Below, piece after piece: positions 18,068 to 27,092 of a DNA stretch of 64,000 bases. The notes beneath the pieces are model-generated. The model searched no databases. It saw only the letters and a list, made by a program, of their open reading frames with translations, and was not told the DNA's origin. Position numbers and translations under genes: made by a program. Within the stretch, counting starts at the first letter, position 1. Each line of letters starts with the position of its first letter. Source of the DNA: Desulfomonile tiedjei. GTDB lineage: Bacteria; Desulfobacterota; Desulfomonilia; Desulfomonilales; Desulfomonilaceae. Location of the stretch: the NCBI GenBank assembly GCA_016218715.1, contig JACRDG010000112.1, positions 1 through 64,000 on the forward strand, given 5' to 3'.

Positions 18068-18622
18068 ATGCTCAACCTCCATGCCGTGCAGTGGCATAGC
18101 CGTGCGAACGGCCCGGGAAATCGCGCAGTATTCTGGTTTCAGGGGTGTTCCTTCCGTTGCCCCGGCTGTTTCAATCCCGGGACCCATTCTCACGCTCCTC
18201 GCCTCCTGGTTCCGGTTTCGGACCTCTTGGACCGCATCGAGCAATCCCAGTCTACGCTCGAAGGCATAACCGTCAGCGGCGGCGAGCCTCTGGAACAGGC
18301 GGAAGGCCTCCTACACCTCGTCCGCGGTGTCAGAGAAATGCCCCTTCTTTCGCTCGTACTCTTTTCGGGTCTGACACGGGAACGGATTCAAGAGCTGCCG
18401 CTCGCGCAGGAAATACTGGCCTCCGTGGACGTTCTGATTGCAGGGCCGTTTGTCCGGGAACTCAGGACGGGGAAGAACCTCAGAGGATCGTCCAACCAGG
18501 AGGTCCATCTCCTGTCGAACAGATATGACGCGCTCCACATTGCCGGTACACCCGTCGGTGAGGTTCACATCGACGCCCGAGGGATGGTCTCGGTGACCGG
18601 CATCGATCCGCCGATCCTGTGA
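18068..18622 (+). CDS. NrdG-like radical SAM activating enzyme
   Basis: This 184-residue radical SAM protein is of the anaerobic ribonucleotide reductase activase (NrdG/4Fe-4S single-cluster family) type. The cluster cysteines are Cys27, Cys31 and Cys34 (CSFRCPGC), the GGE motif is T-V-S-G-G-E-P-L (about residues 66-73), and D-V-L-I-A-G-P-F lies later as in NrdG. NrdG installs a glycyl radical on NrdD, but there is no NrdD or other glycyl-radical enzyme in the window, so this copy probably serves another partner. It stands 109 bp before the AAA+ gene on the same strand. The family-like start is the ATG at 18068; 18044 is also open. Confidence 0.82.
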   Translation: MLNLHAVQWHSRANGPGNRAVFWFQGCSFRCPGCFNPGTHSHAPRLLVPVSDLLDRIEQSQSTLEGITVSGGEPLEQAEGLLHLVRGVREMPLLSLVLFSGLTRERIQELPLAQEILASVDVLIAGPFVRELRTGKNLRGSSNQEVHLLSNRYDALHIAGTPVGEVHIDARGMVSVTGIDPPIL

Positions 18623-18731
18623 GTGCGCAACGGCGTAATCTCGCGAGAACCTCTTGGAAAAAAGGTCTTTTTCCCTCATATTACCTTCCTGAACGCACGC
18701 CGGAATTTGTGTCACGAAACGGAGAGGCAGC

Positions 18732-20222
18732 ATGAACTTCCTTCAGGAGCTGGAAGTCTATCTTCGATCGCGTTTTACACTGATCTGCGTGGTATCGTTG
18801 GAGGAGGAGTGCGTCCTCGAACAGGTCAAACAACTGTGTGAAGAGACCAACCGAAGGCTCTACACGTGGGATCACGCGGATTATTTCGCGGTGATCTCTG
18901 GCGAAGGTGCTCCACCGACAGCCAAAGATCCCATAAGCGCGCTGATTCAGATCGAACACCTGGAGGACGATTCCGTCTTTGTCCTGCGTGACTTTCACCA
19001 GTGCTGGCACGGGCAGCCGAGGGTGATTCGGAAGCTCCGCACGCTCGCACAGGACTTCAAGTGCAACCGGAAGACGCTGATCGTCACCATGCCAGCGCCC
19101 AAGCTCCCCGACGAGCTGAAAGACGATGCTGTGGTCGTCGACTTTCCTCCACCCGGTTTTGACGAACTGAACGAAATCCTCTCAAGGCTTACTGCGACTC
19201 CGGGGGTGAGAGTCACTCTGACCCCTCAGGGACGTGAGAAACTAGTGCGCGCCGCGCTGGGCCTCTCGCACAATCAGGCCAGGAGGATCTTTTCCAAAGC
19301 CGTCGTCTCCAAAGGCTGCGTGGACGAACGCGACATAGATCTCGTCAACTCGGAGAAGAAGCAGGTGATCCGGGAATCGGGCGCTCTGGAGTTCTTCTCT
19401 CCTGCGGAAACAATCGGTGACGTCGGCGGTTTGGATGTGCTCAAGGAGTGGCTGCGCGTCCGGGAGACGGCATTCAGCCAGGAAGCCCGGGACTACGGCC
19501 TCCCTGCTCCCAAAGGGATCGCGCTCATCGGAATACCGGGCACGGGAAAATCGCTCACCGCAAAGATGGTGGCAGGGCTCTGGCACATGCCTCTGATCCG
19601 GCTGGACCTTGGTGCCCTCTTCGGCGGGCTGGTAGGTCAGTCCGAGGAGAACACGCGGCGGGCACTGTCCCTGGCCGAGACCATTGCACCGTGCCTACTC
19701 TGGATAGACGAGATCGAGAAGGGCCTCTCCGTGGGTGGCGGCGATGGCGGAACGTCCATGCGTGTCTTCGCCAGCCTCCTCTCGTGGATGCAGGAGAAGA
19801 CCCAACCGGTTTTTGTGGTGGCAACCGCAAACAACATCTCGCTGCTACCGCCGGAACTGCTCCGCAGGGGTCGCGTGGACGAGATTTTCTTCCTGGACCT
19901 GCCGACCGCGGAGGAGCGCCGAGAGATTTTCGAGGTTCATATCCGCAAGCGCAAGCGCCCCGTGCAGGGCTATGACCTGGCCCGGCTCGTGGACGCTTCT
20001 GCGGGGTACGTGGGCGCGGAGATCGAACAGGCCGTCATCGACGCCATGTACACCGCGTTCGGCGACCGCCGGACGCCGGGACGGGATTTCACCACGGAGG
20101 ACGTAATCGCGGCTCTGGCCAAGCAGGTGCCCATTAGCCATTCCCACCGCGAGACCATCGACGGGCTGCGGAAATGGCTGGCGGAAGGACGGGCCCAGTC
20201 CGCGTCATCCCCGATAGGGTGA
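18732..20222 (+). CDS. Ycf46-type AAA+ ATPase
   Basis: This 496-residue AAA+ protein has the architecture of cyanobacterial/plastid Ycf46: a poorly conserved N-terminal domain (about 1-220) and a single AAA domain with Walker A GIPGTGKS (267-274), Walker [11 protein letters not shown] (Asp326, Glu327), a sensor-1 Asn in V-A-T-A-N-N, and an arginine-finger-like R-R-G-R-V-D-E. The C-terminal lid ends with a short helix. The N-terminal half has its own D-x-F-H-Q-C-W strand as in family members. Function of Ycf46 is not established. The start has GGAGAGG ahead of it. It heads the AAA/HEAT-WD40/GrpE/Hsp70/DUF1257/DUF2997 run and would be its energy-coupling component. Confidence 0.86.
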
Positions 20223-20292
20223 TCCGATGGCGTTGTCAGACGAGGAATCCTGATGCCCATCCCAACTCGCTGCCAGAGAGAGCGGGAAATCA

Positions 20293-20356
20293 CCGGCAAG
20301 ATGCCGGCGCCACTGAGAGTCCCCTTCCCATGAGGAGCGGGACAGGGTGAGGGATG
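20293..20356 (+). repeat. Short palindromic repeats between the AAA+ and WD40 genes
   Basis: CCGGCAAGATGCCGG (20293-20307) is the same hairpin unit as in elements A and C. It is followed by a CCCTTCCC...GGGACAGGGTGAGGG block (20321-20354) related to the one at 45776-45867. No gene lies in 20223-20413. Confidence 0.6.
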
Positions 20357-20413
20357 CCTAAATTCACCGTCTGAGCCCGAAATCGTATCAGACGGCAAAC
20401 GAGCTACCGTCCG

Positions 20414-23011
20414 ATGGAAACCGACTGCTTGGAAGACTTCAGGAAACTCCTCCTCAGCGGTGACTCGATTCCCGACGCGGATCGAGTTCGCGCGGCGGTC
20501 GAGCACCTCGCGCGGGACGGTTCACCGGAAGCCATCGCGCTCCTCGCGGAGAATTTACGCTCACCCAACAAGAAGGAATTGCAGAACCTGGTGTTGGAAA
20601 CCGTGAGCCGGCTCGCGAACGAAGGGACGGCCGGGCCTGCTTACGAGCTGTGGCTTGCCGCTCGTCATCCGCGCTTGACAGCGAGCCTCACCGAGGAGGC
20701 GTGGCAGCCGGACTTCGGGTGGCATCTCAAGGTCTTCCACGCCCTGGAACAGGGCAGGCTCGATGAGATCGTCCGCGGCGGAGCGGAAGTGGTCGACCCG
20801 CTCGTCGCGGCTTTGCGGGACCCGTCCCGGGAAACGAGGGAACAGGCCCAGTGCTGCCTCGAACGTCTCAAGAACCCGGACGCGGTCGACGCGCTATGCT
20901 CGCGGTGGGCCACCGGCCGATCTGAACTATTGGAACGGGTGATTCGGCAGCAAGGGTACGTCGCGAGGAGACCGCCGACGGTGCGCGTGCTTAGTGCGCT
21001 TCTCTGCTTGCGTACCGACCTGATTTCCGGGGCGGGAGCCGATGCGGTCGAGCCGCTGGTCTCGGCCATCGCGGATCGGGCGGCTCCCCTCGCGAATCGT
21101 GCGCTCGCATGCCTGAGTCAGCTCGAGAACCAGGAAGCCATCGACGCCCTCGCGGACATGTGGGTCATCCGCCGAACACCCGAACTCGGCCGCGCCATCG
21201 AGCAAGCCGGTTACGTGGCGAGCCAACCGCCGTGGGTACGGGTCCTCTCTGCTTTGCAGAGCGGCCGGCTGGGCATTCTCCAAGACGACGGACTCGATCA
21301 GGCCTATTTCGTGGCCCTCGCGGCAGAGGATGCAGACCCGACAATAGCTGGCAGGGCACGGGATCTGCTCGACCGAATTCTTGACTCGGAACAGGCTCAA
21401 GATGGCCTGTGCCGTGCGGTCATCGAACTCGGCGCTCCGGTCGCTGAGCACTTGGCCAAGACGCGAGGGTTCAAGCCGCTCGACATCGGCCAGCGAGCGC
21501 TGTTCTATTTCCTCACCGAGCAGTGGGCCGACTATGAGGGCCTCGACTTCGACATGAGCCACTTGCGAGAGGCGTACGCGAGCGCGGGAAAGGACCTCCG
21601 GGGCCGCATTGGAAAACGGGCCCGCCAGGCCGGCCGACTGGAACTGGTGGAACTCGTCTCGGGGGTCCGGCACAAGCGCCAGATGGGGCAAATGACCGCG
21701 CGGGAATGGGGGGTCACACTGGGGATACTTGAGGACCGCCAGGACTGGGAAACCCTCTGGCGTCTCGCGCAGACTGCGCCTGCAGTCTGGAGCGTGCGCG
21801 CGTTGCGGAAGCTCGATGAGCAGGATTGGTCTCCTATCGAGGCGGACGCACGAACCGGCTTCCAGCAGCTCGTTCAGCTCGCGCTGAGGTGCGAATCCGA
21901 GGCCCCGATTCTCGGGATCGTAGATCGTCCCAGCGCGCGATTCCGTGCCCATGGCCGTCGTGTCACTTCCCTTTTGATTAGCTCGTTCTTCGAGAGCACG
22001 CTGGCCAGCTCGAGTTGGGACAGTACGATCCGCATCTGGAGGATGCCGGGCGGCGAGCCGCTCACCACCCTCGCCGGGCACACCCATCCAATAACCTGCC
22101 TGGCCGGAAACCCTGATGGCTCTCTGCTGGCCAGCGGATGCGGAGCGGAACGCGCGGTGGTTCTCTGGACCATGCCCAACGGCAAGCCGGACAAGCGGCT
22201 CGACGGCCACGTGCAGGGGGTCATGAGCCTGGCCGTCAGCGCGGACGGCCGACTTCTGGCTGCGGGGAGCAACGACGCAGCGTGCAGGCTGTGGCGCATA
22301 CGCGACGCAACCCTCCTGGCCACGCTCACGGGGCACACCCTGCCGATCCGCTGCATTGCGTTCAGCCCGGACGGCCGGCTGCTCGCGACAGCGGGCGAGG
22401 ACACCACGATTCGTCTCTGGAGCCTTCCCGAAGGAGAGCCGCTGGCCGTGCTGCACGGTCACAGCCGCACGGTCCGGTGCCTCGCGTTCACTCCCGATTC
22501 CACAATTCTCGCCAGCGGAGCCGCGGACGACGACGTGATCCTCTGGGCTCTGCCTCACGCCACCTTGATCAAGAGGTTGACAGGGCACAGAGACACGGTC
22601 TACGCGCTGGCGGTGAGCGGTGACGGCCGGGTGTTGGCCAGCGGGAGCTGGGACAAGACGGTGCGGCTCTGGATCATGCCGCAAGGAAAAGCATGGGGTA
22701 TGCTCCAAGAGGGCGCAGGGCCGATAACCTGTCTCGCTACCGACCCGGAGAGCCGCATGCTGGTGAGCGGGAGCCACGACAGCACGATCACGATGTGGAA
22801 TTTCCAGTCGGGAATCTTTCGGCGACCGACGACCCGGGAAGAGATGGACCGCGTCCAAGGGCTTTCCAGGAAGCCAGAAGACGCGAGCGAACGCACCTGG
22901 CTCGATTTCCTGCTTGCCCAGATGAGATGGCGCTGGCGCTTCGACATCGAGATCGATCGGACCCCGGCCCGGATTGAGGCCGGCCAATTTGACATCGAGA
23001 TTGACGGATAA
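20414..23011 (+). CDS. HEAT-repeat/WD40 beta-propeller protein
   Basis: This 865-residue soluble scaffold protein has two parts. Residues about 1-400 are alpha-helical with HEAT-like repeats (the pattern R-D-P-S-R-E-T-R-E-Q-A-Q-C-C-L-E-R-L and A-I-D-A-L-A-D-M-W recurs). Residues about 515-815 hold seven WD40 units (ending in forms such as D-S-T-I-R-I-W, D-T-T-I-R-L-W, D-K-T-V-R-L-W), enough for one closed seven-bladed propeller. No enzymatic domain is visible. The tail repeats F-D-I-E-I-D twice. It sits 191 bp after the AAA+ gene and likely serves as a substrate or partner platform for it and the downstream chaperones. Confidence 0.85.
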   Translation: METDCLEDFRKLLLSGDSIPDADRVRAAVEHLARDGSPEAIALLAENLRSPNKKELQNLVLETVSRLANEGTAGPAYELWLAARHPRLTASLTEEAWQPDFGWHLKVFHALEQGRLDEIVRGGAEVVDPLVAALRDPSRETREQAQCCLERLKNPDAVDALCSRWATGRSELLERVIRQQGYVARRPPTVRVLSALLCLRTDLISGAGADAVEPLVSAIADRAAPLANRALACLSQLENQEAIDALADMWVIRRTPELGRAIEQAGYVASQPPWVRVLSALQSGRLGILQDDGLDQAYFVALAAEDADPTIAGRARDLLDRILDSEQAQDGLCRAVIELGAPVAEHLAKTRGFKPLDIGQRALFYFLTEQWADYEGLDFDMSHLREAYASAGKDLRGRIGKRARQAGRLELVELVSGVRHKRQMGQMTAREWGVTLGILEDRQDWETLWRLAQTAPAVWSVRALRKLDEQDWSPIEADARTGFQQLVQLALRCESEAPILGIVDRPSARFRAHGRRVTSLLISSFFESTLASSSWDSTIRIWRMPGGEPLTTLAGHTHPITCLAGNPDGSLLASGCGAERAVVLWTMPNGKPDKRLDGHVQGVMSLAVSADGRLLAAGSNDAACRLWRIRDATLLATLTGHTLPIRCIAFSPDGRLLATAGEDTTIRLWSLPEGEPLAVLHGHSRTVRCLAFTPDSTILASGAADDDVILWALPHATLIKRLTGHRDTVYALAVSGDGRVLASGSWDKTVRLWIMPQGKAWGMLQEGAGPITCLATDPESRMLVSGSHDSTITMWNFQSGIFRRPTTREEMDRVQGLSRKPEDASERTWLDFLLAQMRWRWRFDIEIDRTPARIEAGQFDIEIDG

Positions 23012-23085
23012 TAGTATTTACAGGTTACCTCGAAGTAACCGTTGCGCTCTTGAAGCCAGCCACCTTGGCGGACGCCCCTACCGTT

Positions 23086-23105
23086 ATTCCGGCGGAGGCC
23101 GGAAT
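23086..23105. repeat. Short palindromic repeat (ATTCCGGC hairpin)
   Basis: ATTCCGGC and GCCGGAAT flank a 4-nt loop. It is followed by CCAGG, as in the dispersed sequences of this sort common in proteobacterial genomes. Confidence 0.6.
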
Positions 23106-23340
23106 CCAGGCTTTCTGAAATCCCGTAGAATCCGTTTTCGCCGCAGCAACGATGTGGCCTGAGCCGAAATGTTTGTTTTGTGCCAAGCCTTTGGTGTACG
23201 ATGGCGCAAATACGCGGACGCATTCGGGGACTCGGGCGTAGGTTGCGGTGACCAAAGTGAACCGCATGGTTCGAGGCTTTCTCTCGACAGATGCGGTTCA
23301 CTTCGCTCACCCCATCCTACGGGCCCTCATGGGCCAGCTC

Positions 23341-23420
23341 TTGGCTGTTCAGTGGGGCCGGCATCTTGCCGGTCCGTTAAGAAATGACAGGCAAGATGCC
23401 TGTCCCACCAAAACAGTCGG
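23341..23420 (-). repeat. Intergenic repeat element C (reverse of element A core)
   Basis: Holds CCGGCATCTTGCCGG (23358-23372) and GACAGGCAAGATGCCTGTC (23386-23404) in the same spacing but opposite orientation to copy A, with shared GGCTGTTCAGTGG and ACAGTC flanks. Confidence 0.65.
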
Positions 23421-23508
23421 TGAGGCCGCGATGACTGACGTGTCTCACAGGATTTCGCGACCGTAGTTGCGAAACGTAGTAGTTGATGCCAACAGAACCC
23501 TCGACAGG

Positions 23509-24051
23509 ATGTTTTCTTTTATGACCGTCTTTGACCGGTTCATCAACGCATGGCTGGTATTCACTGGCAAACCTTCGGCAGAAGCTCGCGCTGCAGCGGA
23601 TGAGCTGATTTCCCTCAAGAGCGAGCTTGCCCGCCTCAGGCTCGACTTGCGGGAGGCCAGACAAACCGTTAACGCACTGCGCGAAAGACTCCAGGAACTC
23701 GAATCCCACACCATTCAGCACTCGTCTGACGGTATGGACGGATTGTTCGGTACTATCGCAGCGCCGCTCTCTCAATTGAGGCTGCAGGATTCCCTGATGG
23801 AAGCGGGGAAAGAGATCTCAAGTACGAGCGTCATGACGCTCGCGAGGCACCTGATGAACGCGATCGAGACCGCGGGGCTCGAACCTATAGGTTCCTGCGG
23901 AGGAGAGATCCTTTTCGATCCCGAACAATGCGGGCCGCTCTCGACGGACTCCTCATTCTCTTCGGGTGAGCCGGTGGTGGTAAGGTTTGTCGGGTACCGG
24001 TACAACGGTCGCGTGATTCGGAAAGCCCTCGTGGAAGAGGCTCGGCGATAA
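23509..24051 (+). CDS. GrpE-like nucleotide-exchange factor homologue
   Basis: This ~180-residue protein has a coiled coil (about residues 25-75) and a C-terminal beta region resembling GrpE: G-L-E-P-I-G, then E-I-L-F-D-P-E-Q-C, and P-V-V-V-R-F-V-G-Y-R-Y-N-G-R-V-I-R-K-A, which follows the GrpE pattern of FDP and G-Y-x-x-x-x-R-V-x-R-P-A. It is divergent enough that a standard GrpE call would be unsafe. The stop (TAA, 24049-24051) overlaps the next ATG by one base, so it is translationally coupled to the Hsp70-like protein, its likely partner. The ATG at 23509 or 23521 may be the true start; a TTG at 23467 is also open. Confidence 0.65.
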   Translation: MFSFMTVFDRFINAWLVFTGKPSAEARAAADELISLKSELARLRLDLREARQTVNALRERLQELESHTIQHSSDGMDGLFGTIAAPLSQLRLQDSLMEAGKEISSTSVMTLARHLMNAIETAGLEPIGSCGGEILFDPEQCGPLSTDSSFSSGEPVVVRFVGYRYNGRVIRKALVEEARR

Positions 24052-25640
24052 TGGCAGGGCGTTTGGCAATCGATTTCGGTACGTCCAACACCCGTACCGC
24101 CGTGTGGGACGACGCGGTCGGTGAAGCCCGCTCCCTTCCCATCCCGGACGTATCGCTCAAGGCGAGACACGAGGATGCTGATCACCACGCGGTGGAAGTG
24201 CCGTACATCCCTTCCCTCATCAGCTATGCCGGAAAGCAGGTCTGGATCGGCAAGCAGGTGAAAGAAAAAGGGCTGGCTGATTCGCAATCCACGTTCCGGT
24301 GGATGAAGCGATATATCTCCAACAGACTGGAAATACCCCGGCGAATCGACGGCCGATCCGTCAAGGTATCCGAGGCAGGCGCGGATTTTCTCCTACGGGT
24401 ACTCGTGTACGCGGCTGAAGCCATTGACCTCGGTGATGAAGAGGTCGCATTCACAGTCCCGGTCGAGGCTTTCGAGCACTACCAGGACTGGCTTACCCGC
24501 GTCTGCGATCAGGCGGGCATCAAGCGGTACAGGCTTCTCGATGAGGCTTCCGCGGCGGCGCTCGGTTACGGGATACAGCTTCAGGCCGATTCGGTCTACA
24601 TGGTGTTCGATTTCGGGGGCGGCACCCTGGACGTCTCCATTGTTCGGATGGAGAAGGAGGCCCAGGGCGGAAAACGCTGCTCGGTCCTCGGCAAAGGCGG
24701 GGCCGAAGTCGGCGGAACCACCATCGATCAGTGGCTGTTCCGCGACCTGTGCGCCCGCACCGGCAGGAAACCGGATGATGTCCGGCATATCTCAGGATTG
24801 TTGCTGATGGAAGTCGAGCGCGCGAAAGAAGCCCTTACCACGGCCGACTCTGCCGAGATCACCGTCGTCGATCCCCAGAGCGGTGAGATCATGTCCGGCC
24901 GCTACAGCCGCTCGGAGTTCGAGGATCTCCTCGATGAAAACGGCCTGTTCGAAACACTCCAGGCCGCGGTGGGCCGAGCCTTGGCGAGCGCTCGGGAACG
25001 AGGCTACGAAGCAGAGCACATCGAGGCGGTGCTGCTGATCGGTGGATCGAGCCTGATCCCCAGCGTGCGGCGATCGGTCAGGCAGATGTTCGGCCGCAAG
25101 GTCAAGACTCATCGACCCCTGGACGCTGTCGTATTGGGAGCCGCGGCGTTTGTGGGCGGGGCAGCCTTCTACGACCATGTCCAGCATGAGTACGCTCTGC
25201 GGTACTACAGCCGGGAAAAAGGGGAGCACGAATATTTCACCATTGTGCAGCCTGGCACCCCTTATCCGACCGCAGGGTCGATTTGCCAGGTCACGGTCAG
25301 AGCGTCATACGACGACCAGGAATTCCTTGGACTCGAAATCTACGAGCTCGGCCGCAAGGAGTGCTTCTCCTGCGGCGACGGTCCCTTGCTGGATCTGGTG
25401 TTCGACCCGTCGGGCGCGGCACGGTTCCAGCAGCGCGAAGAACCGGAAATCATCAGCCGTTTCTGGGTGAACGAGAAATGCCCGACGTTCATCCACGCGC
25501 GGCCCAAGTCAAGGCGAGGTGAGAAACGATTCCCGGTCCAGTTCTCCGTCGACGGAAACAAGCGCCTGTGTGTAGCGGTGCGGGATCTGCTCACGGGGCA
25601 GGTGCTGATGAAGGATCATCCTTTGATCAAGCTCACGTGA
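24051..25640 (+). CDS. Hsp70/DnaK-like ATPase chaperone with a short substrate domain
   Basis: This 529-residue actin-fold ATPase carries phosphate-1 D-F-G-T-S-N-T-R (residues 8-15), phosphate-2 V-F-D-F-G-G-G-T-L-D-V-S (about 184-195) and the adenosine motif I-G-G-S-S-L-I-P (about 329-336). Residues beyond ~385 form a beta-rich substrate-binding-like domain, but there is no long helical lid, so the protein is shorter than DnaK (about 640). It lacks an EEVD-like tail. No DnaJ is present nearby. It starts inside the stop of the GrpE-like gene and is followed by the DUF1257 gene after 23 bp, so it should act on components of this cluster rather than as the general housekeeping DnaK. Confidence 0.84.
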   Translation: MAGRLAIDFGTSNTRTAVWDDAVGEARSLPIPDVSLKARHEDADHHAVEVPYIPSLISYAGKQVWIGKQVKEKGLADSQSTFRWMKRYISNRLEIPRRIDGRSVKVSEAGADFLLRVLVYAAEAIDLGDEEVAFTVPVEAFEHYQDWLTRVCDQAGIKRYRLLDEASAAALGYGIQLQADSVYMVFDFGGGTLDVSIVRMEKEAQGGKRCSVLGKGGAEVGGTTIDQWLFRDLCARTGRKPDDVRHISGLLLMEVERAKEALTTADSAEITVVDPQSGEIMSGRYSRSEFEDLLDENGLFETLQAAVGRALASARERGYEAEHIEAVLLIGGSSLIPSVRRSVRQMFGRKVKTHRPLDAVVLGAAAFVGGAAFYDHVQHEYALRYYSREKGEHEYFTIVQPGTPYPTAGSICQVTVRASYDDQEFLGLEIYELGRKECFSCGDGPLLDLVFDPSGAARFQQREEPEIISRFWVNEKCPTFIHARPKSRRGEKRFPVQFSVDGNKRLCVAVRDLLTGQVLMKDHPLIKLT

Positions 25641-25663
25641 CCTTATCGCTGAAGGGAATGGGT

Positions 25664-26047
25664 ATGTCTCACTTCACGACGCTCGCCACGCGAATCGTCT
25701 CGAAAGAGCACCTCAAGCAGGCTCTCGAAGACCTCCAGATAGCCTACGAGGAAGGCGATGTGGAGATACGCGGGTACGAAGGGATCCGCACTCCCGTTGA
25801 GTTACGGATCGCCACTTCCAACCCCGAGTACCAGATCGGGTTCCGGAAACAGGGGGAACGGTACGAGCTGGTGGCTGACTGGTACGGAATCAAGGACGTC
25901 GACCAAAGCCGGTTCCTCAACCGGATCGCCCAACGATATGCGTATCGCGTGGCTAAGGAGCAGTTGGAACAGCAAGACTTCACCGTGGTGGAAGAGGAAG
26001 TCCAGGCTGACGACACCATCCGCATCACGGTCAGGCGCATGGTGTAA
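25664..26047 (+). CDS. DUF1257 (Ycf35-like) protein
   Basis: This 127-residue protein opens M-S-H-F-T-T-L-A-T-R-I and contains G-F-R-K-Q-G-E-R-Y-E-L-V-A-D-W-Y-G and an A-Q-R-Y-A-Y stretch, which are the markers of DUF1257. Homologues are the plastid/cyanobacterial Ycf35 proteins of unknown function. I start at the ATG at 25664 with AAGGGA upstream rather than at the upstream frame, which reads into the Hsp70 gene. It lies between the Hsp70-like and DUF2997 genes in one transcription unit. Finding it with a Ycf46-type ATPase in one cluster suggests the two act together. Confidence 0.82.
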   Translation: MSHFTTLATRIVSKEHLKQALEDLQIAYEEGDVEIRGYEGIRTPVELRIATSNPEYQIGFRKQGERYELVADWYGIKDVDQSRFLNRIAQRYAYRVAKEQLEQQDFTVVEEEVQADDTIRITVRRMV

Positions 26048-26168
26048 TTCCGGACGAGCCTCTCTTCAAGATGGTCCGCCCCAGACTACTGATTTGAAAG
26101 CGAATCGGCTGCATGCCGATCTTGATGCGTGAACCCCGTAGAGGTGAACGCTCTTTTCGGAGGTGAGA

Positions 26169-26384
26169 ATGAGCGAGATCCAGGAGATCGACGTATTTTT
26201 GAAACCGGATGGGACGGTCAAGATCGAGGTGCGCGGGGTGAAAGGTGACAAATGCCTGGCTTTGACTGAGGACGTTGAAAAACTTTTGGGCGGTAAAGTG
26301 CTCGATCGAACAAAGACCGACGAGTACTACCAGACCGAGATCGAACAGACTCAAGAGGACGTCCTGAAACAAGAAATTGAGTAG
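26169..26384 (+). CDS. DUF2997 small protein
   Basis: This 71-residue acidic protein fits DUF2997: a beta strand I-D-V-F-L-K-P-D-G-T-V-K-I-E-V-R-G, then G-D-K-C-L-A-L-T-E-D-V-E-K-L-L-G-G. The single Cys in the middle and the acidic C-terminus are typical. No enzymatic residues are visible, so a binding or adaptor role is likely. The ATG at 26169 has GGAGG 7 nt ahead. DUF2997 proteins are commonly encoded beside DUF1257 proteins, which matches here (121 bp gap). Confidence 0.75.
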   Translation: MSEIQEIDVFLKPDGTVKIEVRGVKGDKCLALTEDVEKLLGGKVLDRTKTDEYYQTEIEQTQEDVLKQEIE

Positions 26385-26438
26385 AGCAGTTGCCCAAAGT
26401 CCTGTGTTTCTTGATTTGGCTTTAGGAACCTGGGGATC

Positions 26439-27092
26439 ATGGCAACCTGGTATCCTCTGTATATGTTCCTGTGGGGTTCGGCCTGTCTTGCCTCGCTGAT
26501 GCTGTATCTGAAAGAGCGCGACGCATACGCGATCTCGCACCGCACTTACTGGAAGTTCCTGCTTGCTCCCTGGAAAGCGATCACCTTCCTCATCTCAGCG
26601 ACAAGCCTGACCGTGATGGCCCCTTACACGGGCGATCCCACGTGGGATCGCTGCGACTCCATCGTCATGTCGGTCCTGACGTTTCTGACAGCTCCGTGGG
26701 TCGTAGGCATCTTGTACCGGACGGCCACGGGGAGGGTACCTCTGCGTCAGAGCTTCGTGGCAGTATGCGTGTGGATGTTCTCCGTGAGCTGGATCTTCGA
26801 CGCGTACATCCTTATAAGGGACGGCGAGTATACCCCGCTGTGGCTCCCCAACATCTTCGCCTCTTCCGCACTGTACATCTCAGCGGGGCTGCTGTGGAAT
26901 CTGGACTGGAAACCGGAGCGGGGGACGATCTTCGCATTCATGGAGCCGGACTGGCCGTCTCCCCCCACGCGGTCGGTCTTCCGCAAAGTTGCCTGGCTCG
27001 CCTTCGTGCTCATGGGTCTGGTCACGCTGCTCGTTCTGCCGTTTCTGTTCGACAGACACCTCGATTTCAGCGCATGGTTCGAACGCTGGTGA
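26439..27092 (+). CDS. Uncharacterised polytopic membrane protein
   Basis: I do not recognise this 217-residue protein. It has about six hydrophobic spans (near residues 5-25, 45-65, 78-95, 105-125, 140-158 and 185-205) with short loops and no clear motif for transport or catalysis; the loop W-D-R-C-D and an R-T-A-T-G-R stretch are noticeable. The ATG follows GGGG. It is on the same strand, 54 bp after DUF2997, and may be the last gene of the cluster, giving it a membrane component. It converges on the acyl-CoA synthetase gene with a 21-bp gap. Confidence 0.6.
   Translation: MATWYPLYMFLWGSACLASLMLYLKERDAYAISHRTYWKFLLAPWKAITFLISATSLTVMAPYTGDPTWDRCDSIVMSVLTFLTAPWVVGILYRTATGRVPLRQSFVAVCVWMFSVSWIFDAYILIRDGEYTPLWLPNIFASSALYISAGLLWNLDWKPERGTIFAFMEPDWPSPPTRSVFRKVAWLAFVLMGLVTLLVLPFLFDRHLDFSAWFERW

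Follow-up and report, generated by a model that had tools for sequence, protein, structure and literature searches.

A Ycf46-type AAA+ ATPase, a DUF1257 protein (Ycf35 family) and a DUF2997 protein form a core whose genes are nearly always found together, often with a gene for an NrdG-like radical SAM protein. Chromosomal versions commonly add to this core a lidless Hsp70 and a fast-evolving scaffold with HEAT, WD40 or FGE domains, and sometimes a GrpE-like factor. Genes for all seven proteins were found at 18068-26384 on the forward strand of the DNA analyzed here, a 64,000-nucleotide stretch from Desulfomonile tiedjei (the window). Judging from the sequences, the cluster may code for a client-specific, ATP-driven protein-remodelling machine with Fe-S input, a putative function that we regard as possible, if somewhat short of an even chance; an assembly or quality-control role would be plausible for it. 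We found no description of an AAA–Hsp70–DUF1257–radical SAM system in the literature. The original prediction of a dedicated, undescribed system gained support, since its parts recur together rather than rarely co-occurring in other genomes.

The genes follow one another in the order radical SAM protein (18068-18622), AAA (18732-20222), scaffold (20414-23011), GrpE-like nucleotide exchange factor (23509-24051), Hsp70-like chaperone (24051-25640), DUF1257 (25664-26047) and DUF2997 (26169-26384), with the starts of the radical SAM, GrpE-like, DUF1257 and DUF2997 genes (18068, 23509, 25664 and 26169) set where they best fit the family alignments. Profile scores above the cut-offs were obtained for every protein family originally named. 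Short intergenic gaps had also been described, and some are short, the GrpE-like and Hsp70 genes even overlapping by 1 bp at the Hsp70 start, but those between the radical SAM and AAA genes (109 bp), the AAA and scaffold genes (191 bp) and the scaffold and GrpE-like genes (497 bp; 23012-23508) are exceptions. Interspersed repeats occupy the 191-bp and 497-bp gaps; in the latter they lie at 23237-23321 and at 23349-23373, which pairs with 20292-20316. Because the gaps are not all short and two of them hold repeats, two or three transcription units are more likely than a single operon. The 497-bp boundary separates the two halves of the cluster, and exactly there the cluster of the closest relative is split over two contigs, its radical SAM, AAA and WD40 genes sitting on a separate contig. 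A promoter and terminator scan gave signal no stronger than in shuffled sequence. The membrane protein encoded next on the same strand (26439-27092) had been counted as a component. This was not borne out: it had no match in a Pfam search, BLAST found no relative of it in the other fetched loci, and it is thus probably outside the system.

Linkage was assessed in 77 non-redundant DUF1257 loci, taking 8 kb as the neighbourhood. The AAA gene was present in 59 and the DUF2997 gene in 68, always on the strand that encodes DUF1257, while Hsp70 was found in 42 and the radical SAM gene in 25. A GrpE-like gene was detected in five loci only; relatives of the window protein are encoded in L049, L075, L081, L088 and the Pseudanabaena plasmid L117. 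The scaffold was present in 37 of 43 loci with Hsp70 vs. 8 of 34 without. Across 247 genomes of the phylum, AAA accompanied DUF1257 in all 24 genomes that have it (p = 1e-18) and DUF2997 did so in 23 (p = 8e-26), the locus in the single DUF2997-less genome being cut by a contig end. Where AAA was not linked, it was encoded elsewhere in 11 of 13 genomes; three of these unlinked AAA genes adjoin a WD40 scaffold and two stand between a radical SAM gene and DUF2997. Such clustering is far above chance expectation. The AAA-DUF1257-DUF2997 association is therefore genuine, and the expectation that the AAA, chaperone and DUF1257/DUF2997 genes co-occur elsewhere was confirmed.

The gene set was found in bacteria, archaea, plasmids and phages. 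A minimal core of AAA, DUF1257, DUF2997 and radical SAM protein occurs on plasmids, including one from Paenibacillus where the cluster consists of just these four genes, and in phages. The basal members, from phages and plasmids, have neither Hsp70 nor scaffold. These two parts (the latter with HEAT, WD40 or FGE domains) appear to have been added onto the minimal core. The AAA is the best conserved part and the scaffold is among the least (92% vs. 57% in one example). One large Desulfobacterota clade lacks a radical SAM gene at its loci, where another Fe-S gene was not identified either.

The AAA protein (496 aa) matched PF00004 (99.5 bits, cut-off 21.2; E 3e-28) and, over its full length, phrog_8638 (2e-139). 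It has a degenerate AAA-like N-half, which aligned with its own C-half (hhalign E 1.2e-5), followed by a C-terminal AAA domain with the motifs of an active enzyme, namely an intact Walker A (267), Walker B (322) and Arg finger (378). The Ycf46-type label refers to comparisons with phrog_8638 and with cyanobacterial plasmid AAAs (61% identical across 99% of its length), a set with no Ycf46-named reference. The scaffold (865 aa) consists of a helical HEAT-like N-half and a WD40 propeller with seven repeats (PF00400, 2e-69), and its relatives bear HEAT, WD40 or FGE-sulfatase domains. The Hsp70 (529 aa; PF00012, 116 bits, cut-off 20.6; E 2e-33) belongs to the Hsp70 family, with a nucleotide-binding domain carrying the phosphate motifs and a substrate-binding beta domain. 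Its profile aligned to residues 1-415 and 431-465 of DnaK 2v7y and ended there, so the protein has no alpha-helical lid after the beta domain and is not a canonical DnaK/Hsp70. It is the third copy in a genome with two full-length DnaKs. The GrpE-like protein scored 27.9 bits with PF01025 (cut-off 25.8; E 2e-6) and fell below the NCBIfam GrpE equivalog cut-offs; in the closest relative, a search for GrpE upstream of the Hsp70 gene found none. GrpE also has a homologue in plastids, Cge1.

The radical SAM protein (about 184 aa) belongs to a family kept in DUF1257 loci. It matched Fer4_12 (PF13353; 105 bits, cut-off 22; E 4e-30) and contains the CX3CX2C motif (GCSFRCPGC), with NGPG in place of DGPG. 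It shares subfamily, size and motifs with the NrdG/PFL-activating enzymes, but has no glycyl radical enzyme partner. We rejected it as the NrdG of this genome, as it scored 100.1-100.5 bits with the NrdG model TIGR02491, under the cut-off of 126.1, and NrdD is encoded elsewhere (G000:C101:139185-140909), followed 0.9 kb downstream by an activase-like gene. The place of the radical SAM protein in the system, as originally proposed, is upheld by its recurrence at the 25 loci, on plasmids, in one viral contig and at spirochaete loci.

DUF1257 (127 aa) aligned with positions 1-102 of the 103 in PF06868 (92.9 bits, cut-off 22.2; E 6e-26) and is thus a full-length member, with a conserved MSHF N-terminus and VADW motif and no conserved Cys. 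DUF2997 (71 aa; PF11211, 54.1 bits, cut-off 24.1; E 1.5e-14) has three invariant residues, G17, C31 and T35 (P0002 numbering). Sequence-profile searches of the PDB gave no meaningful match for either protein. The AlphaFold model of DUF1257 is an alpha+beta fold (pLDDT 93). Its top PDB match in Foldseek was the AAA chaperone Bcs1 (E 0.014) with a poor superposition, and VIA-align gave middling Z scores (maximum 6.5) to KA1/TBP-like arrangements, so we claim no fold relationship and take no functional hint from the fold. The single strong viral match to this model was an unnamed protein of similar size. A fold search with the DUF2997 model (pLDDT 74) found nothing. In one clade, a 60-70 aa protein whose gene separates Hsp70 from AAA resembled a DUF2997 paralogue, but hhalign gave this no support (probability 3%).

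These features bear on a radical-activation or cofactor-maturation role, in which the NrdG-like enzyme would place a radical or a modification on DUF1257, on DUF2997 or on a client bound to the scaffold. AAA and Hsp70 would open this target and load it again, much as activase/reactivase pairs do. The radical SAM protein recurs as a specific partner, including at basal branches of the AAA tree, and keeps both CX3CX2C and a GRE-activase-like motif; the invariant Gly/Cys/Thr motif of DUF2997 would fit as well. However, all 46 loci that lack radical SAM keep the DUF2997 Cys, and one locus that has radical SAM has lost it, which argues against a radical SAM target. DUF2997 is therefore not supported as an obligate substrate, and the originally suggested activation of the DUF1257/DUF2997 core, as far as the radical SAM protein is concerned, gained no support. 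Moreover, Pfam finds no glycyl radical domain in the proteins of the window cluster, NrdD has its own activase-like gene, and a glycyl radical enzyme lies near one examined locus only (L083), again with its own activase. We consider this role unlikely.

Close parallels come from phototrophs. In cyanobacteria, fed7 is clustered with the genes for Ycf35 and DUF2997 and encodes a [4Fe-4S] ferredoxin with a DnaJ protein as binding partner (PMC4284462). This cyanobacterial cluster g (DUF2997 - ycf35 - fed7) likewise places the two small families beside an Fe-S protein, with Ycf46 encoded apart in the same organism, but has a ferredoxin where the window cluster has a radical SAM protein, and no dedicated Hsp70, GrpE or scaffold has been reported for it. 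The Ycf46 and Fed7 genes have common stress regulation, iron limitation included (PMC7496141, PMC4284462). In Chlamydomonas, Hsp70B and Cge1 are interaction partners of the DnaJ-ferredoxin proteins (PMC3564930). An Fe-S domain is thereby physically tied to Hsp70 and Cge1 in the chloroplast CDJ3/4 - Hsp70B - Cge1 complex (PMC3564930, PMC6006212), although CDJ3/4 are J-domain fusions and no AAA, DUF1257 or DUF2997 is described in that complex. This pairing of an Fe-S protein with Hsp70 could point to an Isc-like repair of Fe-S or metal sites, with Hsp70 and AAA taking a cluster or metal from DUF1257/DUF2997 and passing it into clients under iron or redox stress. The sensitivity of the Fed7 mutant to iron limitation and oxidative stress (PMC4284462), the correlation of habitat with losses of ycf35 and ycf46 in red-algal plastids (PMC5940233) and HscA as the top NCBIfam model of our Hsp70, albeit far under its cut-off, are consistent with it. 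We nevertheless find it very unlikely, given a single conserved Cys in DUF2997 and none in DUF1257, a cluster with no IscU- or HscB-like gene, and a carriage by phages and plasmids that would be odd for such a role.

That same plasmid carriage, along with a patchy distribution over phyla, suits a serious rival reading, namely a conflict system for anti-phage defence or plasmid competition, whose variable scaffold would sense an invader and whose AAA/Hsp70 machine would trigger or release a response. Candidate defence pairs of the ATPase-TOPRIM type lie within or beside the cluster in three loci; L093 has HEC-01, the Pseudanabaena plasmid cluster encloses HEC-02, and AbiL stands next to DUF1257 on a Geminocystis plasmid that also has Dnd-type and toxin-antitoxin genes, while HsdM and RadC adjoin locus L070. 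Repeat and FGE-type scaffolds, chaperone NTPases, Hsp70 and GrpE are likewise found in published NTP-dependent conflict systems (MoxR-vWA, GTPase-Hsp70-GrpE; Kaur et al., 2020; PMC7159879). In contrast to these, the window ATPase is Ycf46-type and not MoxR, no vWA, VMAP, GTPase or effector was found, and our literature search found neither DUF1257 nor DUF2997 named in that work. Against the rival, the cluster has no conserved toxic effector, phages themselves carry the core, and in cyanobacteria and plastids the homologues are ordinary residents; several loci (L056, L058, L059 and L101) sit amid housekeeping genes, with gene names assigned by eye. PADLOC scans of the window AAA, Hsp70, radical SAM protein and scaffold gave partial domain matches only, IetA matching just the AAA domain, and no model fits the core proteins scanned. 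A conflict role thus seems to us rather unlikely.

In the remodelling machine that we favour, the scaffold would select a client, the Hsp70/GrpE pair would hold or load it, and the AAA ring would remodel it with DUF1257/DUF2997 as adaptor or regulator of the ring. The Fe-S protein (here the radical SAM protein, in cyanobacteria Fed7) would contribute an electron or a radical, by which the step is gated or completed. In favour of this model are the linkage and co-occurrence figures, the retention of the parts where clusters are split, the pairing of Hsp70 with a scaffold, the strong conservation and intact motifs of the AAA, the extra Hsp70 copy, the four-gene core on the Paenibacillus plasmid and the Fe-S/Hsp70 parallels in phototrophs. 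The scarcity of GrpE-like genes, the Desulfobacterota clade without radical SAM, the basal members lacking Hsp70 and scaffold, and the uninformative DUF1257 fold count against it. More broadly, AAA, DUF1257, DUF2997 and an Fe-S protein might be an ancient, separately evolved machine of plastids, bacteria, archaea, plasmids and phages, of a kind not previously described, in which a radical SAM protein or ferredoxin gates AAA+/Hsp70 remodelling; we put this forward tentatively, as it is somewhat unlikely on balance. If the machine is indeed radical- or redox-gated, it would represent a novel control mode for a protein-remodelling ATPase, and if it is a conflict system, a new chaperone-based one. 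Ycf35, DUF2997 and Ycf46 are kept in cyanobacteria, the first and last of them in many plastids as well, with molecular roles yet to be defined. The cluster reveals that outside phototrophs they are accompanied by a dedicated Hsp70, by a scaffold of a recognition-like kind and by a radical SAM protein, so that the long-open function of Ycf35 and Ycf46 becomes directly testable, and the compact plasmid versions can be cloned whole.

On the forward strand of the window, positions 18068-26384 encode, in this order, an NrdG-like radical SAM protein, a Ycf46-type AAA+ ATPase (AAA), a HEAT-like/WD40 scaffold, a GrpE-like protein, an Hsp70-like protein, DUF1257 (Ycf35 family) and DUF2997. All seven families of the same-strand gene set claimed in the original prediction were borne out by Pfam scores, the window proteins passing the cut-offs for radical SAM, AAA, WD40, GrpE, Hsp70, DUF1257 and DUF2997. 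The membrane protein at 26439-27092 had no Pfam match and no relative among the other loci. This genome (G000) has a single DUF1257 copy, and the cluster Hsp70 is a third copy, with two full-length DnaKs encoded elsewhere. Two further members of this broad AAA family are solitary and lack DUF1257 (G000:C48:148527-149993 and G000:C78:200683-202140). The cluster's two long intergenic gaps contain interspersed inverted repeats at 20292-20316, 23237-23321 and 23349-23373.

We scanned 84,980 species genomes with patterns plus tblastn, recovering 62 DUF1257 loci across many phyla and archaeal bins, and added 7 from viral contigs and 20 regions from same-phylum genomes, found by profile rather than pattern. 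After duplicate removal, 77 loci remained, including the window; many come from metagenome bins, and gene calling simply took the longest ORF. The proposed adjacency recurred: within 8 kb of DUF1257, we observed DUF2997 at 68, AAA at 59, Hsp70 at 42, radical SAM at 25, a WD40-type scaffold at 19 and a GrpE-like gene at 5 of the 77 loci (relatedness ignored). Every linked AAA and DUF2997 gene was on the DUF1257 strand. Among 247 genomes of the phylum, AAA, searched with a profile made from the cluster members themselves, was present in 24/24 genomes with DUF1257 versus 30/223 others (Fisher p 1e-18, relatedness ignored), and DUF2997 in 23/24 versus 6/223 (p 8e-26, relatedness ignored). The closest relative, a Desulfomonilaceae bin, has radical SAM-AAA-WD40 and Hsp70-DUF1257-DUF2997 on separate contigs, the split point matching the boundary at the repeat-bearing 497-bp gap of the window (23012-23508). 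AAA was found elsewhere in 11 of the 13 genomes without AAA at the DUF1257 locus; the other two are bins of 2.6-2.9 Mb with DUF1257 on contigs of 3-4 kb. The distant AAA adjoins a WD40 scaffold in three split-cluster genomes and lies between radical SAM and DUF2997 in two spirochaetes. Because split clusters keep their parts elsewhere in the genome, the linkage is more than hitch-hiking. Only the parts list of the system and its co-inheritance are established.

The smallest versions are found on mobile elements. A Paenibacillus polymyxa plasmid carries AAA-DUF1257-DUF2997-radical SAM and nothing more of the cluster, close variants of this four-gene set occur on Rhodococcus and Bacillus plasmids, and a 171-kb viral contig contains all four genes. 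The Pseudanabaena plasmid version has scaffold, GrpE, Hsp70, DUF1257, DUF2997 and an AAA 61% identical to that of the window. In Prochlorococcus phage P-SSM2, DUF2997 is just upstream of DUF1257, between nol and gp43, with no AAA within the stretch shown; DUF1257 is also present in cyanophages of the marine virus records H31-H40. On a midpoint-rooted FastTree phylogeny of AAA, shown without support values, radical SAM occurs on basal plasmid and phage branches and in the window's clade, and Hsp70 and scaffold are almost entirely restricted to one part of the tree. The simplest reading would be that Hsp70 and scaffold joined an older core of four genes, radical SAM being later lost in one clade. 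Four loci of the same phylum (L044-L047) have a divergent AAA-DUF1257-DUF2997 set in mobile-element-like surroundings; DUF3150 was confirmed in L044, and L047 has by eye a similar gene plus ssDNA-binding-like and helicase-like genes. DUF1257 also lies within contractile-injection (phage-tail-like) gene sets, which include sheath and baseplate genes, at L090, L091, L098 (Spirochaetales) and L119/L138, the latter being Treponema succinifaciens plasmid pTRESU01, where the AAA and radical SAM genes likewise adjoin contractile-injection genes.

In the C-terminal half of AAA, the Walker A, Walker B and arginine-finger motifs are intact, and the N-terminal half aligns weakly to the AAA fold with these motifs absent (hhalign E 1.2e-5 and probability 60% in one comparison), so that a tandem degenerate-plus-active AAA is likely. 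Phage family phrog_8638 matches AAA over its full length. The Hsp70 profile tracks DnaK up to and including the substrate-binding beta domain, ending where the lid would start. An unnamed family of 60-70 aa, with a conserved ICAWGL motif, a C-terminal LCG and no Pfam or NCBIfam match, lies between Hsp70 and AAA in L030, L035, L043 and relatives. The scaffold is interchangeable between loci, combining HEAT and WD40 in the window, carrying an FGE-sulfatase domain in loci such as L028 and L055, and being HEAT-only in a large Desulfobacterota clade. It is present in 37/43 loci with Hsp70 versus 8/34 without. AAA shows the highest conservation of all parts, and the scaffold usually ranks near the bottom (92% versus 57% in one example), as would be expected for a putative recognition part.

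DUF1257 is predicted to form an alpha+beta domain (pLDDT 93), and the model had no clear relative among solved structures. Its N-terminal Met-Ser-His is nearly universal; full MSHF conservation is inflated by MSHFT being among the search patterns, and most members from the profile or plasmid search have F, Y or L after MSH. Gly17, Cys31 and Thr35 of DUF2997 are invariant across a set of 40. The cysteine is kept in 46/46 loci without radical SAM versus 21/22 with it, and therefore is not tied to radical SAM. The radical SAM protein scores below the NrdG cut-off, and another contig of the genome encodes NrdD together with an activase-like gene of its own; the cluster protein is a specific partner of the cluster, which could alternatively be read as a radical-maturation system. 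At L083:3834-7059 (a Delongbacteria bin), the cluster radical SAM is followed directly downstream by a glycyl radical enzyme together with that enzyme's own activase.

A parallel exists in phototrophs. One conserved gene cluster of Synechocystis contains DUF2997, ycf35 and the gene for the [4Fe-4S] ferredoxin Fed7, a protein that binds the DnaJ-like Sll1384 and is required when iron is limiting and under oxidative stress (PMC4284462). CDJ3/4, the DnaJ-ferredoxin proteins of Chlamydomonas, bind a [4Fe-4S] cluster and have Hsp70B and Cge1 as interaction partners (PMC3564930, PMC6006212). Loss of the ycf46 gene slr0374, which belongs to an operon responsive to iron, sulfur and oxidative stress, reduces carbonic anhydrase activity (PMC7496141). 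Thus, the combination of an Fe-S protein, Hsp70 machinery and Ycf35/Ycf46 recurs in two different builds, in which Fed7 and radical SAM may, by analogy, have equivalent roles. Fe-S repair would be another reading of the cluster. In the mechanism that we consider likeliest, the scaffold would choose a client, which Hsp70 would hold, with GrpE where present; DUF1257/DUF2997 would link it to the AAA ring for remodelling, and the Fe-S protein would gate or complete the step. A conflict system is a rival to this remodelling role: candidate ATPase-TOPRIM-type defence pairs lie in or beside the cluster at three loci (HEC-01, L093:6740-8499; HEC-02, L117:12384-13954, on the Pseudanabaena plasmid; AbiL, L118:19911-21838), whereas other loci lie among housekeeping genes.

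In a search with little subscription-journal coverage, the accessible parts of the literature naming DUF1257 or DUF2997 described no such system, and only a plastid genome report joined ycf35, ycf46 and Hsp70. We regard the cluster as a variant of an uncharacterised Ycf35-DUF2997-Fe-S set that has gained Hsp70 and scaffold, and the functional system itself may be wholly new.
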